Of a stretch of DNA of 32,663 nt, positions 3,601-30,931 are shown one piece after another. The notes beneath the pieces were generated by a model. That model ran no database searches. It was not told the DNA's origin and saw nothing but the letters and a program-made list of their open reading frames with translations. Source of the DNA: Saccoglossus kowalevskii (Eukaryota; Hemichordata; Enteropneusta; Harrimaniidae); NCBI RefSeq assembly GCF_000003605.2, contig NW_003143300.1:135357-168019 (forward strand), given 5' to 3'. Both the position numbers and the translations under genes were made by a program. Every line of letters starts with the position of its first letter. The first letter of the stretch is position 1.

Positions 3601-3958
3601 TAAAATAGTGTGTGTATAGACTGGTACCACTCGGCGTGGTCGTGATTACACTATATCATAATTTATAGTGTTAGTGGATAAAAGTCGGTTCACATTAATT
3701 ATTATTTATGTAAAACATTAAACTTTATGCACCTTTATTATTCTTGCAAGTATGTTTTAAGATTTTTGTAAGCACGTCTACATTTGCTTAAATTACCAAA
3801 ATTGTCCGTAAAAACTACACGAGCACACGGATTTCATGAAGTAGGTCAAACCGCAATGTGACAAGAAACAACATCAATGCCGGTTCTACTAGTGTCAATG
3901 GAAAGATGCTCCCATAAAAACAATAAACCTGCGTAAAGACCGTAATTGTATACACTAC
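628..3958 (-). other. PPP5C intron 1, no coding content recognised
   Basis: This 3.3-kb stretch lies between the exon 1 donor (G|GTAGTG) and the exon 2 acceptor. I see only AT-rich sequence with small local structure. There is a 20-bp direct duplication of TCTTTTATTTTAGTACATTT at about 1841-1880. TCTG.GGGCATGCAGA is repeated near 2068 and 2127. CACTATAAAATAGTG forms a short hairpin near 3597. The short open frames here resemble no protein I know. Confidence 0.75.
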
Positions 3959-4088
3959 CTTTGAAATATTCATTTGCCTTTTCTTTCAATTCATCGGCCT
4001 TTTTCATGTCTTCTTCATCTACGTCCATTATTTCGACTTTCCCGTTGATATTATCGTCCACGACTGGGTCAACACAGGGCGACGCCAT
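3959..4088 (-). CDS. PPP5C: PPP5C exon 1: start codon and first TPR helix
   Basis: First coding exon of protein phosphatase 5: 130 nt, 43 codons plus one base. The start ATG (4086-4088 on the plus strand as CAT) sits in the context AAAATGGCG, with A at -3 and G at +4. The frame stays open a little upstream, but only through a GTG codon, so this is the first in-frame ATG. The protein begins MASPCVDPVVDD, then has an acidic stretch (VEIMDVDEED), then KKADELKEKANEYFK, the start of TPR helix A1; human PPP5C has ADELKTQANDYFKAKDYENA. The donor is AAAG|GTAGTG, in phase 1, which rebuilds an alanine codon with exon 2. The acidic, poorly conserved N-terminus is normal for the family. Confidence 0.93.
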
Positions 4089-4518
4089 TTTCGAACTATG
4101 AAGCGAATTACCCTTTTCTGCAGAAGTGTGCGCCCTCACGCAATACTATGAATATGCGCTTTTGTTTTTCAGTGTTAAAATCAGACTCACAAATATATAC
4201 ATATATGTTTGTTGTTTATATTTAAGTTAGGCACTGAGATATCAGTTGAACGAACAGACACACATACACGTCTTACCGACGTTGTGACAACACATATTAA
4301 CTTTTAATATAGTTTTGATATGAACTTGATTTAAACGTGTTCCCATATATGGATTCCAAGATATGACAAACAATACTAAATTCATACAAATAATGAGTAA
4401 TAAGAACATTTCACTAATTAAAGAAACCATAAAGTACATCGAACAGTGTTACAACATAAGAAATACATTACCGGCATAAATAAACAACATATGCCATATT
4501 CTTACATGATGTCGTTAA
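4089..4518 (-). promoter_or_regulatory. PPP5C 5' UTR and presumed promoter region
   Basis: Sequence immediately upstream of the PPP5C start codon. The first 60 bp are distinctly more GC-rich (AGTGTGCGCCCTCACG on the plus strand) than the surrounding AT-rich DNA, as expected for a housekeeping 5' end. I see no convincing TATA box or transcription start signal. The assignment is positional only. Confidence 0.4.
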
Positions 4519-8739: not shown

Positions 8740-11700
8740 AAAGACTTCCATTTGTGTGCTTTGCACACAGGAGTCATAAAAATGCAATTCAAAGCATGTG
8801 CAATATCAATATCAGCACTGTAGCTACTTTGCATAATTTTCAGCGGATCAACTTCTGATGAACCAATTTTCATCTACACTGAAGGCACTTACAGTATGTT
8901 TGTTTACAGTACATCAAGACAATTGTGTACTTTATATGAGCCATGTTTTTGACACACGCCCATAGTATTAAAGTACAATGTATGAGGGCAAGCAATATCA
9001 ACTTTTTAAGTTACCAAGTTTAGACATAATTGGACAGTTCGAATCCAAGCATAAATGTGTCAAAAAGTGCTGAATTATCTTGAAAAACAGGGTGATTCTG
9101 TGCAAGGTTGGAAATCTCGACCAACTGCCTGAAGCCCCACTGAGTTCATGCGAGTTTTTCAGATCATGGGGATGTTACTTCCAAGACCTTGTGAGATGAG
9201 TTAGTGTACATGTACCTTACCAGATAGTGTTATAACTATCATCTACAGGTCTGTATGTTGCACCAGCCTGATGTGAAGAGCCCACGGTACATTGATCCCC
9301 AACAATCTGATACAGACACACCCATCTTCAGGACAAAAGAAATGCAATTGCTGTTACAAAATAACGTCTTGCAACACCCCATGCTGTACTGAAGTCCATT
9401 CTCAGAAACCATTTCTGAGCTGACATTGGGCAAGACATTCAAGCCCAATTTTAGGGTGCAGGCAAAGCTGGAGTTGTGAATCAGCTGACCATCAATATAT
9501 GAATGTACTTATCAGTAAAACTAATGTCTTTGATATGAAGTGTAGTGTTGAAAGGGATACAAACTGAAGACTTCAATAGTAAAGACAAATTTTTGTGGAA
9601 GGGTATATGGAAGTAAGCTGATCATTGTCAGCATATCTTTTGTAGAGGAAGCTGCAAACAGGAAATATAAAATGTTTTAGTCACTCAAAACCAGGATTGG
9701 TTGGCAAGTTCTCACCAAAACACATGGGGGAATAGAACTTGGATAAAGGAACCATTTTGCAAACAGTTCCACGACAGGTGGTCATGACTGTGGTTTTTCC
9801 CTTCACGGGCCAGATGATAACTAAATTCATTTTTATAGCATACATATGGGTAAAATGTCCAACCAACAGCCTTGTGGCAATGAGTGGGATTAAAGTTGGG
9901 ACATCAAATTTGTTGGTCTGACTGTCAGCAGAAACTTCAACCATTCATGGGCAGTCGCACATTGTTTGCTCACATTTGATGTTCATTTTGAATTTTATAT
10001 CTTCACACTTGTGTAGTTAGTTCTAACTTTGCTAATGAATTTATAGACATTCACCTGACATCAGTTTTGCAGCACTGTAGACAACCAGTAGACTTGGTGC
10101 CACCGAAATAGACATCACAGATTACTTTTTAGGTGATCAAAGTTTTAGTAGACTTGTGTCAAAACATGATTGTATTTGTAGATCACAATAATGCAAAATG
10201 CATCACTGGAAGTCACAGAAGCCATACAAGGTTGAAAAGTTCATTATGCACACTCCTGTGCTATAAAATTTAGTGATTACAGACCTAATCAAACTACACA
10301 ATCACATTAGATGTGTATATCCATTACTACTTCTGAATAGCATAGATAAAACTGCTGTCCATCACGACTTGCACTGCCTTAGTTAAGCTAACCTGATTAT
10401 ATGAATCAGAAGTGTGATACGCATGACAAAGTAATTGTTTCATCCTGCACCAATTCTTTATTGTCTTAGTAATAAGCAACGTAATTAGGAGATCAGAATA
10501 ACATTGTAAAGACTGAAAATATGAAAAATTTAGGATAAATGTAGGAGAGATAGATAAGGTGAAATTATAACTAGTTACACTGTTGACATAGAATAACTGT
10601 ACTATACATTGAAATTTTAACTATATGTACAACAATGAAATAAAATGAGTTTCCTGTAGTAGATCAAATATTTGTTGACAACTCTCTTGGACAGTCACAT
10701 ATATATATATATAGATATTGGCAGGAAATAAAAATGAGCTTGACAATAACATCCTTGGGTCGTCAGGGTATATTCTTCATTTGATTAGAATACAGATCAT
10801 ATACGATGCTTGCTGTTCTTCAATATCAATATTTTCCTTCATAATTCTGGAGAAACTGTCACGTGGTGATCACAATATTTGAAATTTTTAATTTCTTATC
10901 CATATGTCTGGTGTAAACACAATGGTCTAACAAGTCTTTTTTCCAAATCAAAAATGTATCTGTTTCAACCAAAGCTCAATTCCATCATAAACCTTTTGTC
11001 TTACAGAATGACAGTGAATTGCTTAAAGCTAAAATTTCCAGCTTCCAAAAGTAGTTATTGGTCAGCTGAAATTGAACAGCTTTGTTCATATAAATTGATA
11101 TGCAATAAGCTTTTTTTTCAAACTTCACATATGTAGAAATGTCTTGACTAATACCACTTGCTGTTCAGTTTGTTTTTATAAAATGCAGATACAAAATGTA
11201 GATGCATAGCCAATTGTGTCAATGCAATAGACAGTTACTGAAACTTGGGTTAGAAAACAGAATAAAATTTGCAGTGAAACTCAATATATTGCACTCTGAG
11301 ATTCAATTATTTGACAGAAGTAATCCGTTTCAACCCAATAATATGGGATCAAAATCCACAAATAATGTCGATTAACATAATTTCAAAATGCGATAAAAGA
11401 GAAAAAAAAACGACAATCTTAAAAAACATCTGGTAAATATAAATTTAAATAAAATTGTTGTTACAAACATGGTTTGACACAAGACAACATTATGGTCATG
11501 TTGACTTCAAAACAAATAAACAACAAAGACAAAGTCATAATCAGTGATAACTGGGTGTTTTATCTTCACTAATAATTACTACAATTTATAGCTTGCATAA
11601 ATAACTTATTGTACATGTAGTATTAAAATCGGTCTATGAATCTGAGAAATTTATGACTATGTAAATAAACCCTACAAGTTTAAAAGGCAGAAAGAATACT

Positions 11701-12708: not shown

Positions 12709-12777
12709 CTATTGTTTTCGCAGGATGTCTTTTGCTCTTTTGTCAGCTTTGGTGATGCGCTGGTCAAGTGATTCAGT
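12709..12777 (-). CDS. SNAP25: SNARE gene alternative last exon L5
   Basis: The most distal of five interchangeable last exons; 22 codons and TAG. The acceptor is TTGCCTCTTGCACTGTGTAG, and the exon enters in phase 0 after the ...DRINDK of exon 7. It encodes TESLDQRITKADKRAKDIL and then RKQ. Aligned without gaps to the human SNAP-25 end (ADSNKTRIDEANQRATKML), it keeps R191, I192 (layer +5), A195 (+6), R198 and A199 (+7), with isoleucine at +8. It differs at layer +3 (T for A) and layer +4 (L for N). It is the most divergent of the five and the most charged. Intron from exon 7: about 5.7 kb. Function as a last exon is inferred from frame, splice site and homology. Confidence 0.85.
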   Translation of the reverse strand, partial: TESLDQRITKADKRAKDILRKQ

Positions 12778-13333
12778 CTACACAGTGCAAGAGGCAACAA
12801 AAAAGGACTATTAACACACTGGTAGAAATCACAATAAGGAAAATAAAACATAGGGATAACATAAAACAAATACCCATACACATAATACTCCTGTAGATAC
12901 AAAAAAAAATTACAACATGCATTATATACAATAAAAAGTTAACTCAAAAGTTAACTCAAAACATTACTGCAGCTAAAAATTTGGGAAACAAATAATTTAG
13001 GGACTGTACACTACCCAGGAATACAAATCTGTAGAGGCAACAATTAAGGTAAAATGTTAAAAGAAAACTGGAAGGCAAACTAAATTACATTACATGCTAC
13101 ATGTAGGGACAGGTTGGGGAGTGGTTGGAGTAAACACAGGTAGCAGACACTTACCATTATAAAAGCATTATGTGAATTAAATTGTTATATGTGATTGTAA
13201 AGGTTAACAGTTTTATATTTTTACTTTTCACATGAGAGTACTAAAGATGAATGAAAATCAATTTTATCATGACACAAATAGGTGCAGTTAGTTATCAAGT
13301 TGTGTAGCAACTTCCCAGGCTCATGTGGCAACC

Positions 13334-13399
13334 TTACTCCTTTAACAGTTGTTGAGTTCTCTTGGTGGCTAAACCAATACGGTCCACATTCAACCGACT
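13334..13399 (-). CDS. SNAP25: SNARE gene alternative last exon L4
   Basis: Last-exon version of 21 codons and TAA. The acceptor is TGGTGTTGTACATTCAG, entering in phase 0 after exon 7. It encodes SRLNVDRIGLATKRTQQLL and then KE. Layer positions by ungapped alignment to human SNAP-25: S (+3), N (+4), I (+5), A (+6), T (+7), L (+8); R191 and R198 are kept. It is closest to L3, sharing SRLN-x-DRI-x-LA. From LA onward a gapped alignment is also possible (LA----TK), meaning L4 may have lost four codons and gained a new tail. A longer open frame overlaps it in another phase and reads ESVECGPYWF; that frame is a shadow. An AAAGGA|GTAAGG donor-like site straddles the stop codon but is not needed by the model. 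Confidence 0.82.
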   Translation of the reverse strand, partial: SRLNVDRIGLATKRTQQLLKE

Positions 13400-13513
13400 C
13401 TGAATGTACAACACCAAAGAATACATCCAAGTTTTGGTGAAGGCGGGTAAATAATATGATGGCCAATAAAACGACACAACACAAAAGAAAGAAAAAGAAA
13501 GAGAGAAGAGAAC

Positions 13514-13519
13514 TTTATT
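13514..13519 (-). terminator. Candidate poly(A) signal for last exon L3
   Basis: AATAAA on the minus strand (TTTATT on plus), 0.77 kb downstream of the L3 stop and upstream of the L4 acceptor. This is where a signal would be needed if L3 is a true alternative terminal exon. The hexamer is common in AT-rich DNA, so the evidence is only positional. Confidence 0.35.
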
Positions 13520-14287
13520 AAATATGTGGAGATTTCATTTAAACTATCTCATATAGTAAACATGAGTATATACTGTAATGCTGGAAGATAAATAAAGTTT
13601 TAAAGGACATACAATGTAGCCAATTAAATGCAGATAAATTGAAATCATTCTTCATACTTAGTGTGATTCTACTCAGTTCTGGTCAATGAGATGGTTCACC
13701 ATGACATTCAGAAACTTATCAATATATTTCTATTATTCTACTGATGTTAAAAACAAAATACAATGAAAATCTTAGCAGCAATGATGATGATGTCCCGAAT
13801 AAATAGAATAAAGTTAGCATAAGCTGTCCTAGACAATTGTCACTAGTATCACAAGTGTGATGCTATTCAATAGCTATATCTAGAATTATCTAAACAGTGT
13901 ATTGTTTTCATTATGAGAAAGGGTATGCTAGAAATTTAGAGCGAAAAAATCAATTGTCGAGTGCAACTAAGCATTAAATATACAACCACAATTAATATTG
14001 CTATATCCTGTTGTATCGACTCTATTCAGTACAACAAATTTAAAAACTACATACAAGAAGAAAATAATCATTAATAGTTGATCAGTTGGGACGAGTCAAC
14101 AAACAAGTTAGCCAGTCATGGACGGACATAGTCGATGTGATCCCTATGTAGCTTAACTGCCACTTAGCTGAGCTAACTGAGCTACTATAAGTATGCATAC
14201 AAAGAAGTGAATATTTATATATATCAATGTCAAACTGTGCTGAGATAACTGCCTCATGCATTACTGTCCCAGCATTATTGCATCCTT

Positions 14288-14356
14288 TTAGTTTTGATGG
14301 AGAATCTTGGTGGCACGGGAGTTGGCCAGATTTATACGGTCCGCATTCAGTCGGCT
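14288..14356 (-). CDS. SNAP25: SNARE gene alternative last exon L3
   Basis: Last-exon version of 22 codons and TAA. The acceptor TTTTTTTGTGCAAATGTATAG has a long T-rich tract and enters in phase 0. It encodes SRLNADRINLANSRATKIL and then HQN. By ungapped alignment to human SNAP-25 (ADSNKTRIDEANQRATKML), layers +4 N, +5 I, +6 A, +7 A and +8 I are kept, as are R191, N196, R198, T200 and K201. Layer +3 is S instead of A. It is one of the versions closest to the vertebrate tail. As with L4, a longer frame in another phase (TECGPYKSGQLPC) overlaps it and is a shadow. Intron from exon 7: about 4.1 kb. Confidence 0.88.
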   Translation of the reverse strand, partial: SRLNADRINLANSRATKILHQN

Positions 14357-14652
14357 CTATACATTTGCACAAAAAAATAAAAACCAAACACAAACAGGAA
14401 ACAAGAAAAACAAAAGCAATAAAAAAAACGATACCATCAGCAATGACCAGAACACAGGATCAACCGAAAAATAATAAGGCCACCAAGAAAAACACAAAGA
14501 GAGAGAAAGAAGAAACAAAAATTACTAAATGATAAAAATGTTAATGATACATGAGAAAACAAGCCTGATTGCATGCAATAGTTAACGCACAACTTTTCTG
14601 CTTAGAGCACACAGTGGATTCATAGAATGGTTTTTTTCATCCATAGTCATTC

Positions 14653-14658
14653 TTTATT
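14653..14658 (-). terminator. Candidate poly(A) signal for last exon L2
   Basis: AATAAA on the minus strand, 0.4 kb downstream of the L2 stop and 0.3 kb before the L3 acceptor. Suggestive by position only. Confidence 0.4.
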
Positions 14659-15056
14659 TACAATGACTTAACATGCAAGACCAAACATTTTTAAGCATGA
14701 CTGCAGAGGTGTGACTTTAAATATTGCATACAGTGGCCAGTGAAAAGCATGGCAAGAATCTATAAATGGTAAATGAATAACTTTGCAAAAAAACAAGCTC
14801 AATAAAACAAGTTCATGTGAACTTTTATCTTGCTACAGGAAAATAATATTTCATTCATTGCTCATGCATATTATTACTAGTACCAATAGCAAACATCAAC
14901 TGTGACCAAACAATCATCTTTCAAATTGTCTAACTATAAACCCCTTTGAGAAAAAAAATGTATTGCTGGCAGACACAAAAAATTGGTTACTGTCAGTGTT
15001 AGGCGAAGCTTCTTGATTGGGACAAGATGATGGACAGCCCTGCAGTTATGTTTATG

Positions 15057-15134
15057 TTAGGAATCCCTCCCCTTGTGAAGTAATTCGCTTGCCCGTGTAT
15101 TAGCTTGGTGAATACGTGTGACATTTGAAGCACC
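15057..15134 (-). CDS. SNAP25: SNARE gene alternative last exon L2
   Basis: Last-exon version of 25 codons and TAA, the longest of the five. The acceptor GCTTCTTTTCTACTTCTATCAG is the strongest by eye and enters in phase 0. It encodes GASNVTRIHQANTRASELL and then a basic tail, HKGRDS. Layers by alignment to human SNAP-25: G (+3), N (+4), I (+5), A (+6), A (+7), L (+8); R191, N196 and R198 are kept. It is closest to L1, sharing SNVxR and ANTRA. The extra C-terminal residues lie after the layered helix, near where the SNARE meets the membrane, and could alter the late stage of zippering; that is inference. Intron from exon 7: about 3.3 kb. Confidence 0.9.
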   Translation of the reverse strand, partial: GASNVTRIHQANTRASELLHKGRDS

Positions 15135-16666
15135 CTGATAGAAGTAGAAAAGAAGCACAGAAGGAAAAAAAAAGTCATGCCAAGTAAAAAGTTAGTAACA
15201 GTAAAACAGAACCAGCAAGAGACAGTTAAACACATACATTACAGACCATGCTTCCATGTATGTTGACATGTATGTTTACATACATAGTTTAAAGTGTCTG
15301 TGAAAAACCTTCTACCCTGATATCTAAAATCACTTGTTGCTAGATGAATATTATTTATTATAGTATTCAATTTCTACTATCTACTATCACTCATTTGATG
15401 CATTTCACATTTATTTCTAATTTGCAACTAGACACTGATAACGTCACAAGGAGATATTGCTGTTCAGCGTAGACATACATGTAGTAGTGGAACTGTGACA
15501 GTTTTGTTAAATATTTCTCATCTATTGACTGAATTAAACTACTAGTAAAATTTGTTTGACAAATCTTGGCCAACAAATATCATGCTATATTTAATCTTCC
15601 TCAGTGTCATATATGGACACATTCAATGACCTGATAAGTGACTGCATGTTATTCATGGGTCAATCACTTGACTCTGTGTCATATCTGTAAGATTTCGAGC
15701 TCATTGCAAAAAATTGAGATCCTAATTGGATCTAACAAACTTTTAACATAATTGTCGGGGGGCAGACTAGTGTAAACCTTGTTCTTAAATTGGATTTGCG
15801 TGTTCATTGTTTGTACCCCAGAAATAAAATAAAATCAATTTAATTGACAAAACTTTACTTCGTATTCAGTCAATTATTAAATATTCTATTAATAGAATTT
15901 TCATTTTATATCCTAGTAATACATGCACTAGTAAAAGAAATAAATAGTTTTATAGGTTCTTGCGAAGCTCCCTCAATTTGTCTTATGTTTGGTGGCATTG
16001 TTTCCTTTCTAGTGACAGGAAGGGGGCGTGGCTACAACTCTGACTCATTTCAATTTTACTTGAATACCATTCATTATTATTTTTAATTCACAAATATTCA
16101 TTTTAGGGCAACATGAACCCCAAAAAATAATGTATTTGTGGGTATTTCACAGGCACTTTAAATATAAAGCAACATCAATTATTATATAAGAAGATACTGA
16201 TATTCAGTGCTTTTATGTGCAGTGTGTTTGCATTTGATGAATTATTGGATATAAAGGAATGGTAAATGGAAAGAGTAACAAGTGACAGGTAGGGGAGTGG
16301 AGAACCAGGGAGTGTGATTGCAGGCAGGGGAAGATAATCTGGACCAAGATTGTTGCAATGCAAATAATTAATATAACTTATTGATCATACATATTAATTC
16401 TCATTCAGAAATTGAGAAAGCCAAAGCAGATGATATGGATGAGATGTATTAGTTGAGGGAAATATCAGGCATGATTAAAATAGGTTTTTGTTGAAAACGG
16501 AATAAGCAAAGTCTAAATAAGTATAAGTAGTTTTAATTTGGTATAAATACAGTAGAATTCACTCCAAACAATCACACAGAATGTAAAAGCTAATAAACGC
16601 TATGTATCTTCATGCAGATTTGAATGTTAGTCATTCCACGCTTGCAGAGAAGAACATGGTACATGC

Positions 16667-16732
16667 CTATTCTTTGAGTAGCTTTGTTGCACGAGTGTTT
16701 GCAACAGTGAGACGTTGAACATTGGACCCGGC
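16667..16732 (-). CDS. SNAP25: SNARE gene alternative last exon L1 (proximal, canonical-like)
   Basis: The first last-exon version met after exon 7 (intron 1.7 kb); 21 codons and TAG. The acceptor TTATTATCTGTATCAG has a modest pyrimidine tract and enters in phase 0. It encodes AGSNVQRLTVANTRATKLL and then KE. Compared with human SNAP-25 (ADSNKTRIDEANQRATKML), it keeps A (+3), S-N (+4), R191, A (+6), N196, R198, A (+7), T200 and K201, with leucine at +5 and +8. It is the best match to the usual family tail, so it is probably the ancestral or default last exon. It was not detectable as a long open frame because it has no ATG. Confidence 0.93.
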   Translation of the reverse strand, partial: AGSNVQRLTVANTRATKLLKE

Positions 16733-17349: not shown

Positions 17350-18464
17350 AAAATTTAATTTTGGTTGAGTTGCTTTAACTGATTTTTCCCCTAAAACGGT
17401 ACTAGTCCCAGGAGATGTATAATCCCCGTACTCTAAAGGTTGAAACACATGTGACCATGGCATATAGTCTATATTGTTAGTCAGAGTTGGTTATTGCTAA
17501 ATAGGTACAACCTATTAACGTCTATCTACAGGATATTTATAGGTACTAAGGAGTGAAATCCAACACGCCAACTATAATATACTAAACTGTTGTGCAAGAA
17601 TACTACAAGAAAACACCCAAGGTAGGCTATATATACAGCAGATATCTAAGAGAAAGAGAAGTGCAGGAAGTGAAATGGCAATTCAGACATGCTTCATTAG
17701 ATTTACAGAGAAATTGTCTCTGTTAAAAATCTAATTTTAGAAAGATCGTTAAAAGCGACGTGGAAATTGATGATAAATATCTAAGGAAGCATATCCATTG
17801 CATGAATTATAAGACAAACAATTAAATGCTGGTTGTATCAGAGAGAATAAAACTCTGTTACATCCATGTATTTACGTCGTCAAGTGATTCAGGGATGTAC
17901 TCTATGGCATTCCACACTACACAGTCAACACCTAAAGGACTCCAAATTTTACAGTTAGACACAAGATATACTGCAACTATTTTACTGACAAAGCTTTAAC
18001 ACTCCTTGGAGAAAAGAACACTAATATTGGCAGATTAAAACTACACAGCTGGGATTTTGTGGGATGGGCAATGAATCATGACCATGATTTCCTGTGTTTT
18101 TTATTGTTAGCCATGCTAGCTGAATGATGCGCATAATAATTCAGCAGTCCCAAGTATAAGAATCCCAGATGTGCAAACATCAGTGCTACTATTTATTCAA
18201 ACAAATGTAATCTCAATTTAATAAATTTCAAATAGTATTGTGTTATTGTACTTTTGACTGAAATGAGTGAGTCAATTGGTAGGTCAGCAACTTTAAATAG
18301 GAATTTAGTGTCAGAAATATAGTTTTATATTGACTGATCACAAAAATAATTTCAGGAAGAAATATTGCTTGATGAAAACAGTAGCACTGTGAATGAAAAA
18401 GGTAGAGGTAGAAAATATTAGAAAGGTATTGAAGAGATTGATGGTATAAACATGCCACACCCAC

Positions 18465-18609
18465 CTTGTCATTGATGCGATCAACCTGCTTATTTTGTGC
18501 TTCAATTTCATTACCCATATCGATTGCCATATGTTTCAAATTGCCAACAATACCACTAACTTGACCAACATTCTCATCCATTTCAGTTTCTCTAGCATCA
18601 TTAGTTATC
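18465..18609 (-). CDS. SNAP25: SNARE gene exon 7: N-terminal part of second SNARE helix
   Basis: A constant 145-nt exon. Acceptor AATTGCCTTTCAG, donor AAG|GTGGGT; it enters in phase 2 and leaves in phase 0. It encodes [20 protein letters not shown], then [20 protein letters not shown] and QVDRINDK. Human SNAP-25 reads [20 protein letters not shown] and [20 protein letters not shown]. The zero-layer glutamine of the second helix (Q174 in human; first Q of EAQNKQ) is present, as are the layer +1 and +2 hydrophobics (V and I of QVDRI). The exon stops precisely after layer +2, so layers +3 to +8 come entirely from whichever last exon is chosen. If the donor were skipped, the frame would continue about 75 codons into the intron with no recognisable domain. 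Confidence 0.96.
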
Positions 18610-19950: not shown

Positions 19951-20547
19951 TGCATTAAATCAAAGTTTCTCATTCATGCCAAACATTCATTTAAGAAATA
20001 TGTTAAAAGGAAGCTGGGATTGGACTATGGAATGTGACACCATTGCTCATGTTGTTTATATTACAGTGTTACTGCCTGTTACTAATTACTGCCCTCCCAC
20101 ACATCCGGCACCGGTAACTATTCAGTCGGATGGATGTACGATTGTTTTCAAAATTATATACCTAGAGATCTGATTGGACCGTTTTGACACATGCAACATT
20201 TAAAACATGTATAAACAACAATCGATGAACAAAGCGTGAATTAGGGAATGATACCAATGATACTGTCAACAAGCAGACAGTGTATTGTAAAGTATGCAGA
20301 GCAATATATAAATAAAATTTTCTTACTTGAATGATTGAATGAAATGGAGTGAAATGATTGAAAATTAACAAGCCATGCATGGCACAGTCCCCGTTAGTTA
20401 TCAAATTTAAGATATATAGTTTTGTTTATAGTAATATAGCTGGAATATAACCCTGTCAGGAATATGATTTTTTAACATTAAAATGATTGACATTTGTATC
20501 TGATCGTCAAACAAGTACTTGTCCATATTGAGAGATATTGCTCTGGA

Positions 20548-21749
20548 ACAGCATTCAAAATCAGCCATTTTGAATACATGTATATATATAACATGATGTA
20601 TAACGAATATATAAAATTTAAATATAATAAGTCAAACCATTTAAGAGATATGGCTCTTGAAGCCCAATCATGAAACAAAATGGCCGCCAGTCAGCCATTT
20701 TGAATCAAATCTGAAAAATATAATGACGAACATCAGGATCCCGTAATGTCTACGTATGTACCAAGTTTGAATGAAATCCATCCATAAATGCTTGATATTT
20801 GATGATTTTTTAGCACAAAAATGACCACCATTCGGCCATTTTGAATAGGATAGTCAAACCAGTATATCTGTTTATCTATGACATGATGTATAATGAATAT
20901 TTAAAATTTGAAAATATTATCAGTCAAAACAAGTCGGAGATATGATAATTGATAATATCAATATCATCTCATATATATCTCATATAAGCTATACAAGCCA
21001 ATTAACTGAATATCCAGTTCATTGTAGAATTCCAAAACAAGTCTGAGATATGGGTCTAGAAGCCCATTCATTAAAACAAAATGGCCACCAGACAGCCATT
21101 TTGAATCCGATCTGAAAAATAAATGATGTGCATCAGGAACCTGCAATGTCTAATATATGTACCAAGTTTGAATGAAATCTATCCATAAATGCCAGAAATG
21201 CTTGATATTTGATGATTTTTTAGCACAAAAATGACCACTATTCGGCCATTTTGAATAGGAAAGTCAAACCAATATATCTGTTTATCTATGACATGATGTA
21301 TAATGAATATTTGAAATTTGAACATAATCAGACAAAACAAGTCAGAGATATGGCACGAGAACCACATTCATTAATACAAAATGGCCGCCAGTCGGCAATT
21401 TTGAATCTTATCTGAAAAACAAAATTATTTGCATCAAGGTTCCATAATGTCTAATGTATATACCAAGTTTATACAAAATCCATCTGTAAACAGTCGAGAA
21501 ATGGTTGATTTTTAGGATTTTTTAGCACAAAAACGGCCGCCATTCGGCCATCTTGAATCAGATCGTGAAACAAATTGACGTGCAAATGTATAATATCATG
21601 TATGATGTATGTGTGAAGTTTGATTGTGATTGGTCCTGGCATTTCTAAAATACAGGTCCGGACACACGCACGCACGGACGCACGGACACACGGAGGTCAA
21701 AACACAAGTCACCGTTTTTGGACCGCATCCAAACGGGGACTAATAAAAT
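20548..21749. repeat. Tandem array of ~300-bp units with terminal hairpin
   Basis: About three and a half diverged units. Each contains ATTCGGCCATTTTGAAT, then ACATGATGTATAATGAATAT, then ACAAAATGGCCGCCAGTC, then ACCAAGTTTGAATGAAATCC. ACCAAGTTT recurs near 20759, 21160 and 21461; the middle unit is longer because of an inserted 80-bp copy (20950-21029). The array ends in a CGCACGGACGCACGG-type tract and then a hairpin, AGTCACCGTTTTTGGA...TCCAAACGGGGACT, followed by AATAAAA. The same terminal sequence closes the array at 29920-30820. Confidence 0.85.
20950..21029. repeat. 80-bp duplicated segment, copy 2 (inserted in tandem array)
   Basis: Near-identical to 19871-19950. It interrupts a unit of the tandem array and accounts for most of the extra ~98 bp in that unit, so it arrived after the array formed. 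Confidence 0.88.
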
Positions 21750-22136
21750 ATTGAAAATATAAACAGGGCTGGTGAATTTTTAGCAAGTTTTTAAAGATAC
21801 CTGCCCTGTTGTCTGGTAAAACATTTTGACAAATTTCAAACAATGATATTATTAATCTTTTTGTTCCCCTTTATAATTTTAATCCTGAAGAAAATTTGCT
21901 GTGAGATTGGGCTAAAAAAGCTCAAGTCACAGACAGTCAGCAACACAATAGTTGTATTTTCACACAGATGCTTATTACAGCGCATTAAGAAACTACCGGT
22001 ACTTGTCTAAGCTACATATGATTCGCCCAGACTTAAAATGTAAATCTCCCTGGTTATTGTACAGAGAAGAAATTGTCAATTTGTATATTTTTAGTAAGTT
22101 TGGTTGCCCTTTAGTCCATACTAAATGTATGTCCAA

Positions 22137-24843: not shown

Positions 24844-24984
24844 CTTGTAATATAGCTTGAGTTTCCCATCATTGCATTTCGTTCATCTGATACCCTTGCT
24901 GTTGGTTGACTCGACACCACTTTACCATCTTCAGAAGATTTCCATGTCTTTTTATAGTCATCTCCCTTTTCAAAGTTACCAAAA
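24844..24984 (-). CDS. SNAP25: SNARE gene exon 6: linker between the two SNARE helices
   Basis: A constant 141-nt exon. Acceptor TTAATTTCTTGCAG, donor ACAAG|GTTTGT; it enters in phase 2 and leaves in phase 2. It encodes NFGNFEKGDDYKKTWKSSED, then GKVVSSQPTARVSDERNAMM and GNSSYIT, with the next R codon split to exon 7. Human SNAP-25 has [20 protein letters not shown], then PARVVDEREQM and GGFIRR. The YKKxW, VVxSQP and DER elements mark the family linker, which lets both helices of one protein enter the same bundle and helps target the protein to the plasma membrane. The DERNAMM part begins the approach to the second SNARE helix. No second version was seen. Confidence 0.95.
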
Positions 24985-26229: not shown

Positions 26230-26347
26230 TTTTTACATGGGCAAACACAGATGCCACAGCACTTTTCAAGACCAGTCAAGTTTTTTTCAGCCTCTCTCAT
26301 GTCTGTGTTGATCTGATCCATACCCTCCTCAATACGATCAAGTTGTT
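26230..26347 (-). CDS. SNAP25: SNARE gene exon 5: end of SNARE helix 1 and cysteine cluster
   Basis: A constant 118-nt exon. Acceptor CTTTAATTTAG, donor AAAAA|GTGAGT; it enters in phase 1 and leaves in phase 2. Together with exon 4 it encodes [20 protein letters not shown], then [19 protein letters not shown]. Human SNAP-25 reads [20 protein letters not shown] and ends KFCGLCVCPCN. The cluster CCGICVCPC has five cysteines, as in human SNAP-23, rather than the four of SNAP-25. These cysteines are the palmitoylation sites that attach the protein to the membrane. In vertebrate SNAP25 this is the exon that is duplicated (5a/5b); here only one copy is visible, while its neighbour exon 4 and the last exon are multiplied. 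Confidence 0.96.
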
Positions 26348-27729: not shown

Positions 27730-27778
27730 CTCCTTGTTCATCCAACATTACTAGAGTGTTGATGCCTGCCTCCTTGCT
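27730..27778 (-). CDS. SNAP25: SNARE gene exon 4, version II (SNAP-25-like)
   Basis: A 49-nt alternative exon. Acceptor TTTTCCATCGACCAG, donor GGAG|GTGACA; it enters in phase 0 and leaves in phase 1. It encodes SKEAGINTLVMLDEQG. Human SNAP-25 at the same place reads SKDAGIRTLVMLDEQG, so this version resembles SNAP-25. It spans layers -4 to 0 of the first SNARE helix (zero-layer glutamine in DEQ). It lies 209 nt after version I. Including both versions adds 49 nt, which breaks the frame, as does skipping both; a functional mRNA therefore needs exactly one. Confidence 0.92.
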
Positions 27779-27987: not shown

Positions 27988-28036
27988 CTCCTTGCTCATC
28001 CAACATAACTATAGTCTTGATTCCAAGATCCTGACT
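27988..28036 (-). CDS. SNAP25: SNARE gene exon 4, version I (SNAP-23-like)
   Basis: A 49-nt alternative exon of the same length and phase as version II. Acceptor TTTTTTTTACAATTCAG (strong), donor GGAG|GTAAGA (consensus). It encodes SQDLGIKTIVMLDEQG; human SNAP-23 reads SQDAGIKTITMLDEQ, so this version resembles SNAP-23. Compared with version II it changes K to Q, E to D, A to L, N to K and L to I, leaving the layer residues G, T, L and Q untouched. The differences therefore fall on the outer face of the helix, where accessory proteins bind (inference). Both sets of splice signals are intact, so neither looks like a pseudo-exon. Confidence 0.94.
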
Positions 28037-29670: not shown

Positions 29671-30931
29671 AACCCCCCCCCCCCAATCTGATTAAAATCT
29701 GATGTAGTGTACAGGCTTTAATTATTTTGGCTAGAAACTTATTTTAATTTTATTTTTTATTATATTTGTTATTAATGCCCTTTTTTTTATTACTTTACTT
29801 ATTTACTTATTTTTTTTATTCTGCCCTACCTATGTATGTAATGAAGAATTAAAAAAAAAAAAACACGAAATCAAAATCAAAGTAAAATAATAATAAAACA
29901 AGTCATTGTCAATGACACGTCCCCATTCCGTTCATATTTGAGTGACATATACATTCAAAGCAGATCATGACCGAAATCTCAGACCACTTTCAGTGGTCTG
30001 ATCCGAAATGCACCTGCATATGTACAACACATTGTATGATGTGTGTGAAGTGTGGTCTTGATCTGTCCAGGCATGTCCGAGATATGGATCAAAAACTAAA
30101 TTCTTTAAAACAAAATGGCTGCCAGTCGGTTATTTTGAACTTGATCTGAAGAAAAATTTGTGTGCATCAAGCTTATATTATGTTTAATATATGCACTAAA
30201 TCTGAACAAAATCCATCCATGCATAACTGAGATCTGGTTCCGGAATTGTGAAAATACGTGATTTTGATGCATTTTCGGCCTTAAAATGGCCATCATTCAG
30301 TTATTGTTAAGCGGATCATGAAACAAATGCACACATCTATTTGTGGCATGATGTACCTTGTGTGTGTGAAGTTTGAACTCGATCAATCCAGGCATGTCTT
30401 GGATACGGATCCAGAACTGAATTCTTTAAAACAAAATGGCCACCAGTCGGCCATTTCAAACCCGATCCCCCCCCCAAAAAATGACGTTCATCAAGGTCCT
30501 ATTATGTTTAATGTATGTACCAAATTTGAACAAAATCCGTCCATGCATAACTGAGATCCGGGTCCGGAATTGTGAAAATGTGCGATTTTGATGCATTTTC
30601 AGCCTTAAAATGGCCGCTATTCGGCTATCGTTAATCGGATCATGAAAAAAATGCATAAGCATATGTCCCATATAATGTGTGATGTATGAGTGAAGTTTGA
30701 ACTTAATCGGTCCATGCATGTGCGAGATACAGGTGATCACGGACGCATAGACGCACGGACGCACACAGGGCAAACCATAAGTCCCCGTTTTCGGACTACG
30801 TCCAAACGGAGACTAATAAAAAGGCATTAATAACAAAAGTAATAAAATATAAAATTAAAATAAGTTTATGGCCAAAATAATTAAAGCCTGTACACTACAT
30901 CAGATTTTAATCAGATTGAACCCCCCCCCCC
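29671..30931. mobile_element. 1.2-kb element with ~97-bp terminal inverted repeats in poly-C
   Basis: The left end (29684-29780) and right end (30822-30918) are reverse complements. The first 48 bp, starting CAATCTGATTAAAATCTGAT, match perfectly, and similarity continues with small differences to TTATTAATGCC. The element is flanked on both sides by AA followed by eleven Cs (29671-29683 and 30919-30931), which would be a 13-bp target duplication. It encodes no transposase, so it is non-autonomous. Its interior is a tandem repeat array of the family at 20548-21749. Confidence 0.8.
29920..30820. repeat. Internal tandem array with terminal hairpin
   Basis: Two to three diverged units with ACAAAATGGCCACCAGTCGG, TCCATGCATAACTGAGATC and GATTTTGATGCATTTTCGGCC. 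On the minus strand both units keep an open frame reading like KMHQN..FSQFR..ISVMHG, which is repeat-derived rather than a gene. The array closes with CGCACGGACGCACA, then the hairpin AGTCCCCGTTTTCGGAC...GTCCAAACGGAGACT, then AATAAAA, matching the end of the array at 20548-21749. Confidence 0.8.

Follow-up and report, generated by a model that had tools for sequence, protein, structure and literature searches.

Can a single SNAP-25/23 gene exchange the half of its SNARE helix that drives membrane fusion? The question is raised by a stretch of 32,663 nucleotides (nt) of Saccoglossus kowalevskii DNA from NW_003143300.1, called the window below; all coordinates are window positions. The window has a GC content of 33% and is without N. 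An earlier reading of the bare sequence (the original prediction) had placed on its minus strand a SNAP-25/23 gene with five interchangeable last exons. The presence of the gene and of the five exons was borne out by profile ranks, Pfam and PDB matches, constraint and splice signals. Sequence match, constraint and splice-site anatomy together give good support to a SNAP-25/23 (Qb,Qc-SNARE) gene whose terminal coding exon exists in five alternative versions. The following exons, with their frames and splice signals, are present; exon numbers are those of the vertebrate gene, and the last exons are numbered L1 to L5.

27988 to 28036, minus strand: exon 4a, 49 nt, start phase 0 and end phase 1, SQDLGIKTIVMLDEQG, first SNARE helix; AG acceptor, GTAAGA donor
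27730 to 27778, minus strand: exon 4b, 49 nt, start phase 0 and end phase 1, SKEAGINTLVMLDEQG, alternative to 4a in tandem; AG acceptor, GTGACA donor
26230 to 26347, minus strand: exon 5, 118 nt; single strong match within the window
24844 to 24984, minus strand: exon 6, 141 nt, linker; Pfam SNAP-25 PF00835
18465 to 18609, minus strand: exon 7, 145 nt, second SNARE helix up to a point shortly beyond layer +2; end phase 0
16667 to 16732, minus strand: last exon L1, 21 codons, AGSNVQRLTVANTRATKLLKE and stop; score 44.7; previous AG 127 nt back
15057 to 15134, minus strand: last exon L2, 25 codons, GASNVTRIHQANTRASELLHKGRDS and stop; score 41.3; previous AG 116 nt back
14288 to 14356, minus strand: last exon L3, 22 codons, SRLNADRINLANSRATKILHQN and stop; score 41.3; previous AG 168 nt back
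13334 to 13399, minus strand: last exon L4, 21 codons, SRLNVDRIGLATKRTQQLLKE and stop; score 29.0; previous AG 113 nt back
12709 to 12777, minus strand: last exon L5, 22 codons, Leu at layer +4, TESLDQRITKADKRAKDILRKQ and stop; score 28.0; previous AG 30 nt back

Exon 7 terminates at 18465 with ...DRINDK, followed by GTGGGT, and thus ends behind layer +2 as originally predicted. All coordinates of the five phase-0 AG acceptors (16732, 15134, 14356, 13399 and 12777) and of the 21-25 codons plus stop behind them were verified. In each of the five cases an acceptor of the same phase lies behind the one donor and the exon carries its own stop. Longer open reading frames in the wrong phase, said to mask two of these exons, were both found in the list of frames (14082-14459 over L3, 13221-13514 over L4).

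In the second helix, L1-L5 account for SNARE layers +3 to +8. The layer numbering used agrees with the construct description in PMC7116205. In the order L1 to L5, layer +3 is occupied by A, G, S, S and T, layer +4 by N, N, N, N and L, layer +5 by L, I, I, I and I, layer +6 by A throughout, layer +7 by A, A, A, T and A, and layer +8 by L, L, I, L and I. As had been claimed, 5/5 exons retain R191, A195 and R198 together with a hydrophobic residue at +5. The further claim that the exons vary elsewhere held for surface and tail; L203 is also kept in all five, layer +3 varies, and Leu replaces Asn at +4 in L5. The net charge over residues 185-203 is +3, +1, +3, +3 and +1.

The terminal exons were scored with a BLOSUM62 profile of three outside sequences (human SNAP-25, human SNAP-23 and fly Snap25). 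Any AG-preceded frame of 19 codons with a stop within the following nine codons was taken as a candidate terminal exon. L1-L5 occupied ranks 1-5 among the 387 candidates of the window (169 on the minus and 218 on the plus strand) with the scores listed above, and the next candidate scored 9.0. In 600 third-order Markov windows (19.6 Mb) the top score was 19.7, and four windows reached at least 15.

The identity of the gene was assessed on the joined exons 4b, 5, 6, 7 and L1, which form one open frame via GT-AG introns. The product aligned with SNAP-25 chains of the PDB over residues 1-170/172 (best E value 9.4e-64), and the SNAP-25 linker domain PF00835 was detected in both isoforms scanned (82.7 bits, cut-off 25). 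The general SNARE model PF05739 stayed below threshold, with 22.1 against a cut-off of 26.8 in one of the two isoforms. The second SNARE helix was aligned entire, with its Gln in EAQNKQ; the first was seen only from exon 4 onward. The linker contains a cluster of five cysteines, and such linker cysteines are palmitoylated. Exons 1-3 were not found in the window, the joined flanks or a whole-genome search in which masked stretches read N. Masking can explain this result: in the joined region of 166,915 bases, window included, 92,615 are N, among them 31,567 adjoining the 5' side of the gene and all 10,000 on the opposite side.

Pairwise comparison of L1-L5 was performed over 19 codons (10 pairs). 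Identity between copies was 0.40-0.60 for nucleotides and 0.32-0.58 for amino acids. The proportion of nonsynonymous differences (pN) was lower than that of synonymous differences (pS) in 10/10 pairs, the ones involving L4 or L5 among them. Synonymous change was beyond correction in 7/10 pairs; the other three had synonymous divergences (dS) of 1.1-1.8 and ratios of nonsynonymous to synonymous divergence (dN/dS) of 0.29, 0.40 and 0.55. Neighbouring copies were closest, L1-L2 and L3-L4 sharing 11/19 residues each and the remaining pairs 6-9, as is predicted by stepwise tandem duplication. Human SNAP-25 shares 11/19 residues with SNAP-23 and 10/19 with the fly protein, so that the divergence of L1-L5 is like or beyond that between human SNAP-25 and either of these. 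No similarity was detected among the flanks of L1-L5 apart from the overlap of neighbouring query stretches, and a recent duplication was rejected on account of these dissimilar flanks. Unconstrained old copies should lose frame, phase or AG, and none of the five has done so. Hence the five terminal exons are old, intact and under constraint.

Exon 4 proved to be duplicated too (4a and 4b, listed above), which was absent from the original prediction. The two versions are homologous, of equal length and of equal phases, with a nucleotide identity of 0.77, 11/16 residues in common, pS of 0.52, pN of 0.16 and dN/dS of 0.20. Early stops arise if both are included or both skipped, and the choice between them would therefore be enforced by the frame. 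With two versions of exon 4 and five last exons, up to ten forms are possible.

Splice signals were compared with those of the surrounding region. The distance to the previous AG is 113 nt or more for L1-L4 and is 70 and 107 nt for 4a and 4b, against 72, 59 and 23 nt for exons 5, 6 and 7. The region has 700 AGs, those of the exons just named among them; the previous AG is at least 100 nt back in 15 cases and at least 113 nt back in 12. The pyrimidine share of the 150 nt upstream is 0.613, 0.640, 0.713, 0.647 and 0.633 for L1-L5, 0.640 and 0.627 for 4a and 4b, and 0.593, 0.487 and 0.480 for exons 5-7. With a regional mean of 0.527 and a 95th percentile of 0.633, L2-L4 lie above the latter, L5 equals it and L1 lies below it. 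According to PMC1431707, large AG exclusion zones indicate distant branch points, and human exons with zones of at least 100 nt are more often alternatively spliced. By extension from human, long AG-free zones may mark regulated exons in this animal as well. UCUU occurs 4, 2, 3, 6 and 1 times in the last 150 nt before L1-L5, once and six times before 4a and 4b, and 2, 1 and 0 times before exons 5-7; for the region the mean is 1.1 and the 95th percentile 3. These counts are a lead, and no more, to a PTB-like regulator.

Candidate polyadenylation (poly(A)) signals behind the last exons were identified by hexamer match only.

16532 to 16537, minus strand: ATTAAA, candidate poly(A) signal, 130 nt past L1; AATAAA also at 15415 and 15359
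14653 to 14658, minus strand: AATAAA, candidate poly(A) signal after L2
13514 to 13519, minus strand: AATAAA, candidate poly(A) signal after L3

Behind L1, L2 and L3, AATAAA or ATTAAA thus precedes the next acceptor. A donor-like GTRAG near the stop was found in L4 alone among the five (GTAAGG across the stop codon at 13337). Internal use of the L exons was rejected on this ground, and an extended use of L4 is possible. The scan for pairing of the docking/selector type gave one direct repeat of 21 nt and one inverted pair of 23 nt with 78% complementarity. One arm of the pair, 12877-12899, precedes the L5 acceptor by about 100-120 nt; the other, 17523-17545, belongs to the intron behind exon 7. 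Such pairing could loop out L1-L4, but 47/100 simulated sequences contained one or more pairs of this kind, and it is therefore no evidence for docking and selector elements. An Rfam scan gave no family at gathering score, and a tRNA scan gave none.

The arrangement is probably one of alternative last exons, one per transcript, which would swap the fusion-driving half of the helix, with 4a or 4b chosen as well; use in RNA is what we infer from the genomic arrangement. The last coding exon would have been duplicated in tandem, stepwise and long ago, giving five alternative last exons. In each transcript, exon 7 would be joined to one L exon, and the message would be cleaved and polyadenylated behind that exon; the terminal exons would exclude one another because their own stop and poly(A) site end the message. 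The choice may be governed by cell-type-specific factors that act at the long, pyrimidine-rich stretches, and upstream one of the two 49-nt versions of exon 4 would be chosen too. Each product would be a complete Qb,Qc-SNARE, with differences confined to a short tail and, in the second helix, to layers +3 to +8. A small residue at +3, hydrophobic residues at +5 and +8, Ala at +6, R191, R198 and L203 are kept; the surface, layer +4 in L5 and the tail vary. This mostly fixed core with varied surface and tail, together with Leu at +4 in L5, suggests an unchanged fold whose stability or partner contacts are altered.

In PMC7116205, the accessory helix of complexin touches the final 12 residues of SNAP-25, and frayed layers +5 to +8 are cited for isolated t-SNAREs. 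All 12 complexin-contacting residues fall inside the swapped exon. A likely role of the array would be cell-type-specific tuning of final zippering and of the contacts that complexin and synaptotagmin make there; both the exchange of exons in transcripts and its effect on fusion are predictions from the sequence. Evenly balanced in our judgement is a wider proposal, by which this single SNAP-25 gene replaces a gene family: up to ten cell-type forms would differ in zippering strength, surface charge and complexin contact, and splicing would set the speed and clamping of fusion. If so, L5 with its Leu at +4 would make a more hydrophobic C-terminal bundle.

Several points weigh against alternative use of all five exons. 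Anatomically, the weakest point is that L4 and L5 lack canonical poly(A) hexamers nearby: no AATAAA or ATTAAA, only weaker variants, occur in the 558 nt that separate L4 from the L5 acceptor, and behind L5 the first such hexamer lies at 10892, 1.8 kb away. The previous AG of L5 is just 30 nt back. Of the 16-nt pyrimidine tracts of L1-L5 (9, 14, 10, 10 and 12 of 16), those of L1, L3 and L4 are ordinary, as counts of at least 9 are seen at 45% of AGs and counts of at least 10 at 29%. Pyrimidine richness lowers the frequency of AG, so that the pyrimidine and AG-distance signals are not independent. Every dN/dS estimate of the L exons is based on 19 codons only, exons 1-3 lie beyond the window where the contig is masked, and collections of genome contigs and viral contigs yielded no relatives.

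An array spliced mainly to attach different 3' untranslated regions, governing localisation or stability of the mRNA while protein differences are tolerated, is unlikely as the whole explanation and can coexist with a swap of helix ends. Each exon does end in a stop of its own, with hundreds of bases still to go to the next acceptor, and alternative last exons are reported to localise mRNA in neurons, according to the title of a reference in PMC8151252. Against it, surface positions differ strongly while most layers are fixed; five coding copies of the helix end would also be unnecessary for such a role, which is not a strong argument.

Rather improbable is the use of only one or two exons, probably including L1, with the others being old duplicates that are no longer spliced. 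It would fit the missing hexamers near L4 and L5 and the lowest scores, which belong to these two exons (29 and 28). It is opposed by frame, phase, AG and core residues that are intact in all five despite near-saturated synonymous divergence, by pN below pS in all pairs, L4 and L5 included, and by the distance of 113 nt between L4 and its previous AG.

An assembly error, or paralogous genes collapsed side by side, is very improbable; the array lies in one contig with zero N in the window and no second strong match to exons 5-7, and the copies are only 40-60% identical in nucleotides with flanks that are not duplicated. Separate nested genes were likewise rejected, as the window holds no second strong match to exons 5-7. 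Chance frames resembling the end of SNAP-25, conceivable because the exons are short, have a negligible probability and were rejected, since 0/600 simulated windows reached 20 and the scores of 28-45 for L1-L5 are far above the simulated maximum.

The readable part of the 572-Mb genome, in which masked stretches are N, yielded no further SNAP-25 linker, exon 7 or exon 5. Genome searches give lower bounds, and short exons are easily missed: one search recovered L1 along with exon 7 and missed L2-L5, another exon 7 and L5 only, and a further one exons 5 and 4b but not 4a. For partner SNAREs of the same genome, 13 matches to the synaptobrevin model and 8 to the SNARE model were listed. A tandem exon array was absent from the seven sequences compared; neither neuronal synaptobrevin nor syntaxin 1 could be clearly recognised, and no conclusion on partner SNAREs is therefore drawn.

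Tandem alternative exons are a known kind of arrangement, of which the place and number seem new here. Syntaxins have alternative last exons (C. elegans unc-64; mammalian STX1A, STX2 and STX3), and as here the choice of terminal exon alters the C-terminus of a Q-SNARE. In syntaxins, it is mostly the membrane anchor that changes, whereas here the predicted exchange concerns zipper layers +3 to +8, is fivefold and involves homologous exons. The exon 11 array of Drosophila Mhc comprises five converter exons. Like this array and those of the Dscam type (PMC5740500), the present exons are tandem homologues that would serve as alternatives of one segment. Those arrays are internal and use mutual-exclusion machinery, whereas the present one is terminal and exclusion would come from stop and poly(A) site. 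In vertebrate Snap25, exon 5 is duplicated in bony fish and higher vertebrates and not in Torpedo or Drosophila, according to PMC2581893. The two cases share the family, a tandemly duplicated coding exon and, by prediction here, one copy per transcript. They differ in that the vertebrate gene has two copies of internal exon 5, whereas here exon 4 (two) and the terminal exon (five) are multiplied and exon 5 is a single strong match. A literature search of the open-access subset, mostly titles and abstract openings, found no report of a C-terminal SNAP-25 exon array.

To our knowledge, the C-terminal half of the SNARE bundle, whose folding leads into fusion, has been studied chiefly by means of laboratory mutants. 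Evolution appears to have preserved five intact versions of this fusion-driving segment in one gene, on the same body. Comparison of the five ends would reveal which positions tolerate change and whether splicing is a means by which animals set the kinetics of fusion.

Other features were observed in the window and in a further contig. On the minus strand, TPR-containing exons of the adjacent downstream gene lie at 398-661 and 3846-4145, and are presumably those of protein phosphatase 5 (PPP5C). An imperfect tandem array with periods of 42 and 117 nt at 104-364 adjoins the PPP5C-like exon. Tandem repeat units of 324 nt occupy 30040-30730, and text resembling them by eye, with a recurring 'aaatggccga..ggcggccatttt', is found at about 20500-21750; both probably belong to a mobile or satellite-like repeat.

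In the mitochondrial contig (17,037 bases; gene names assigned by eye), COX1 is inverted. Against the best PDB chain, 7o37_a from mouse, nine ATA codons of COX1 counted by eye aligned with Ile (5), Val (2), Leu (1) and Met (1), and the single informative AAA aligned with Lys. Blocks of the deuterostome gene order are kept. Under the known mitochondrial codes a hemichordate would suit these observations better than an echinoderm or lancelet, but the inversion of COX1 leaves this a weak indication. The nad2-nad1 and cob-nad6 arrangements seem unlike the usual deuterostome order. One end of the contig carries, close by, a repeat of some 190 nt that is visible as repeated open reading frames.

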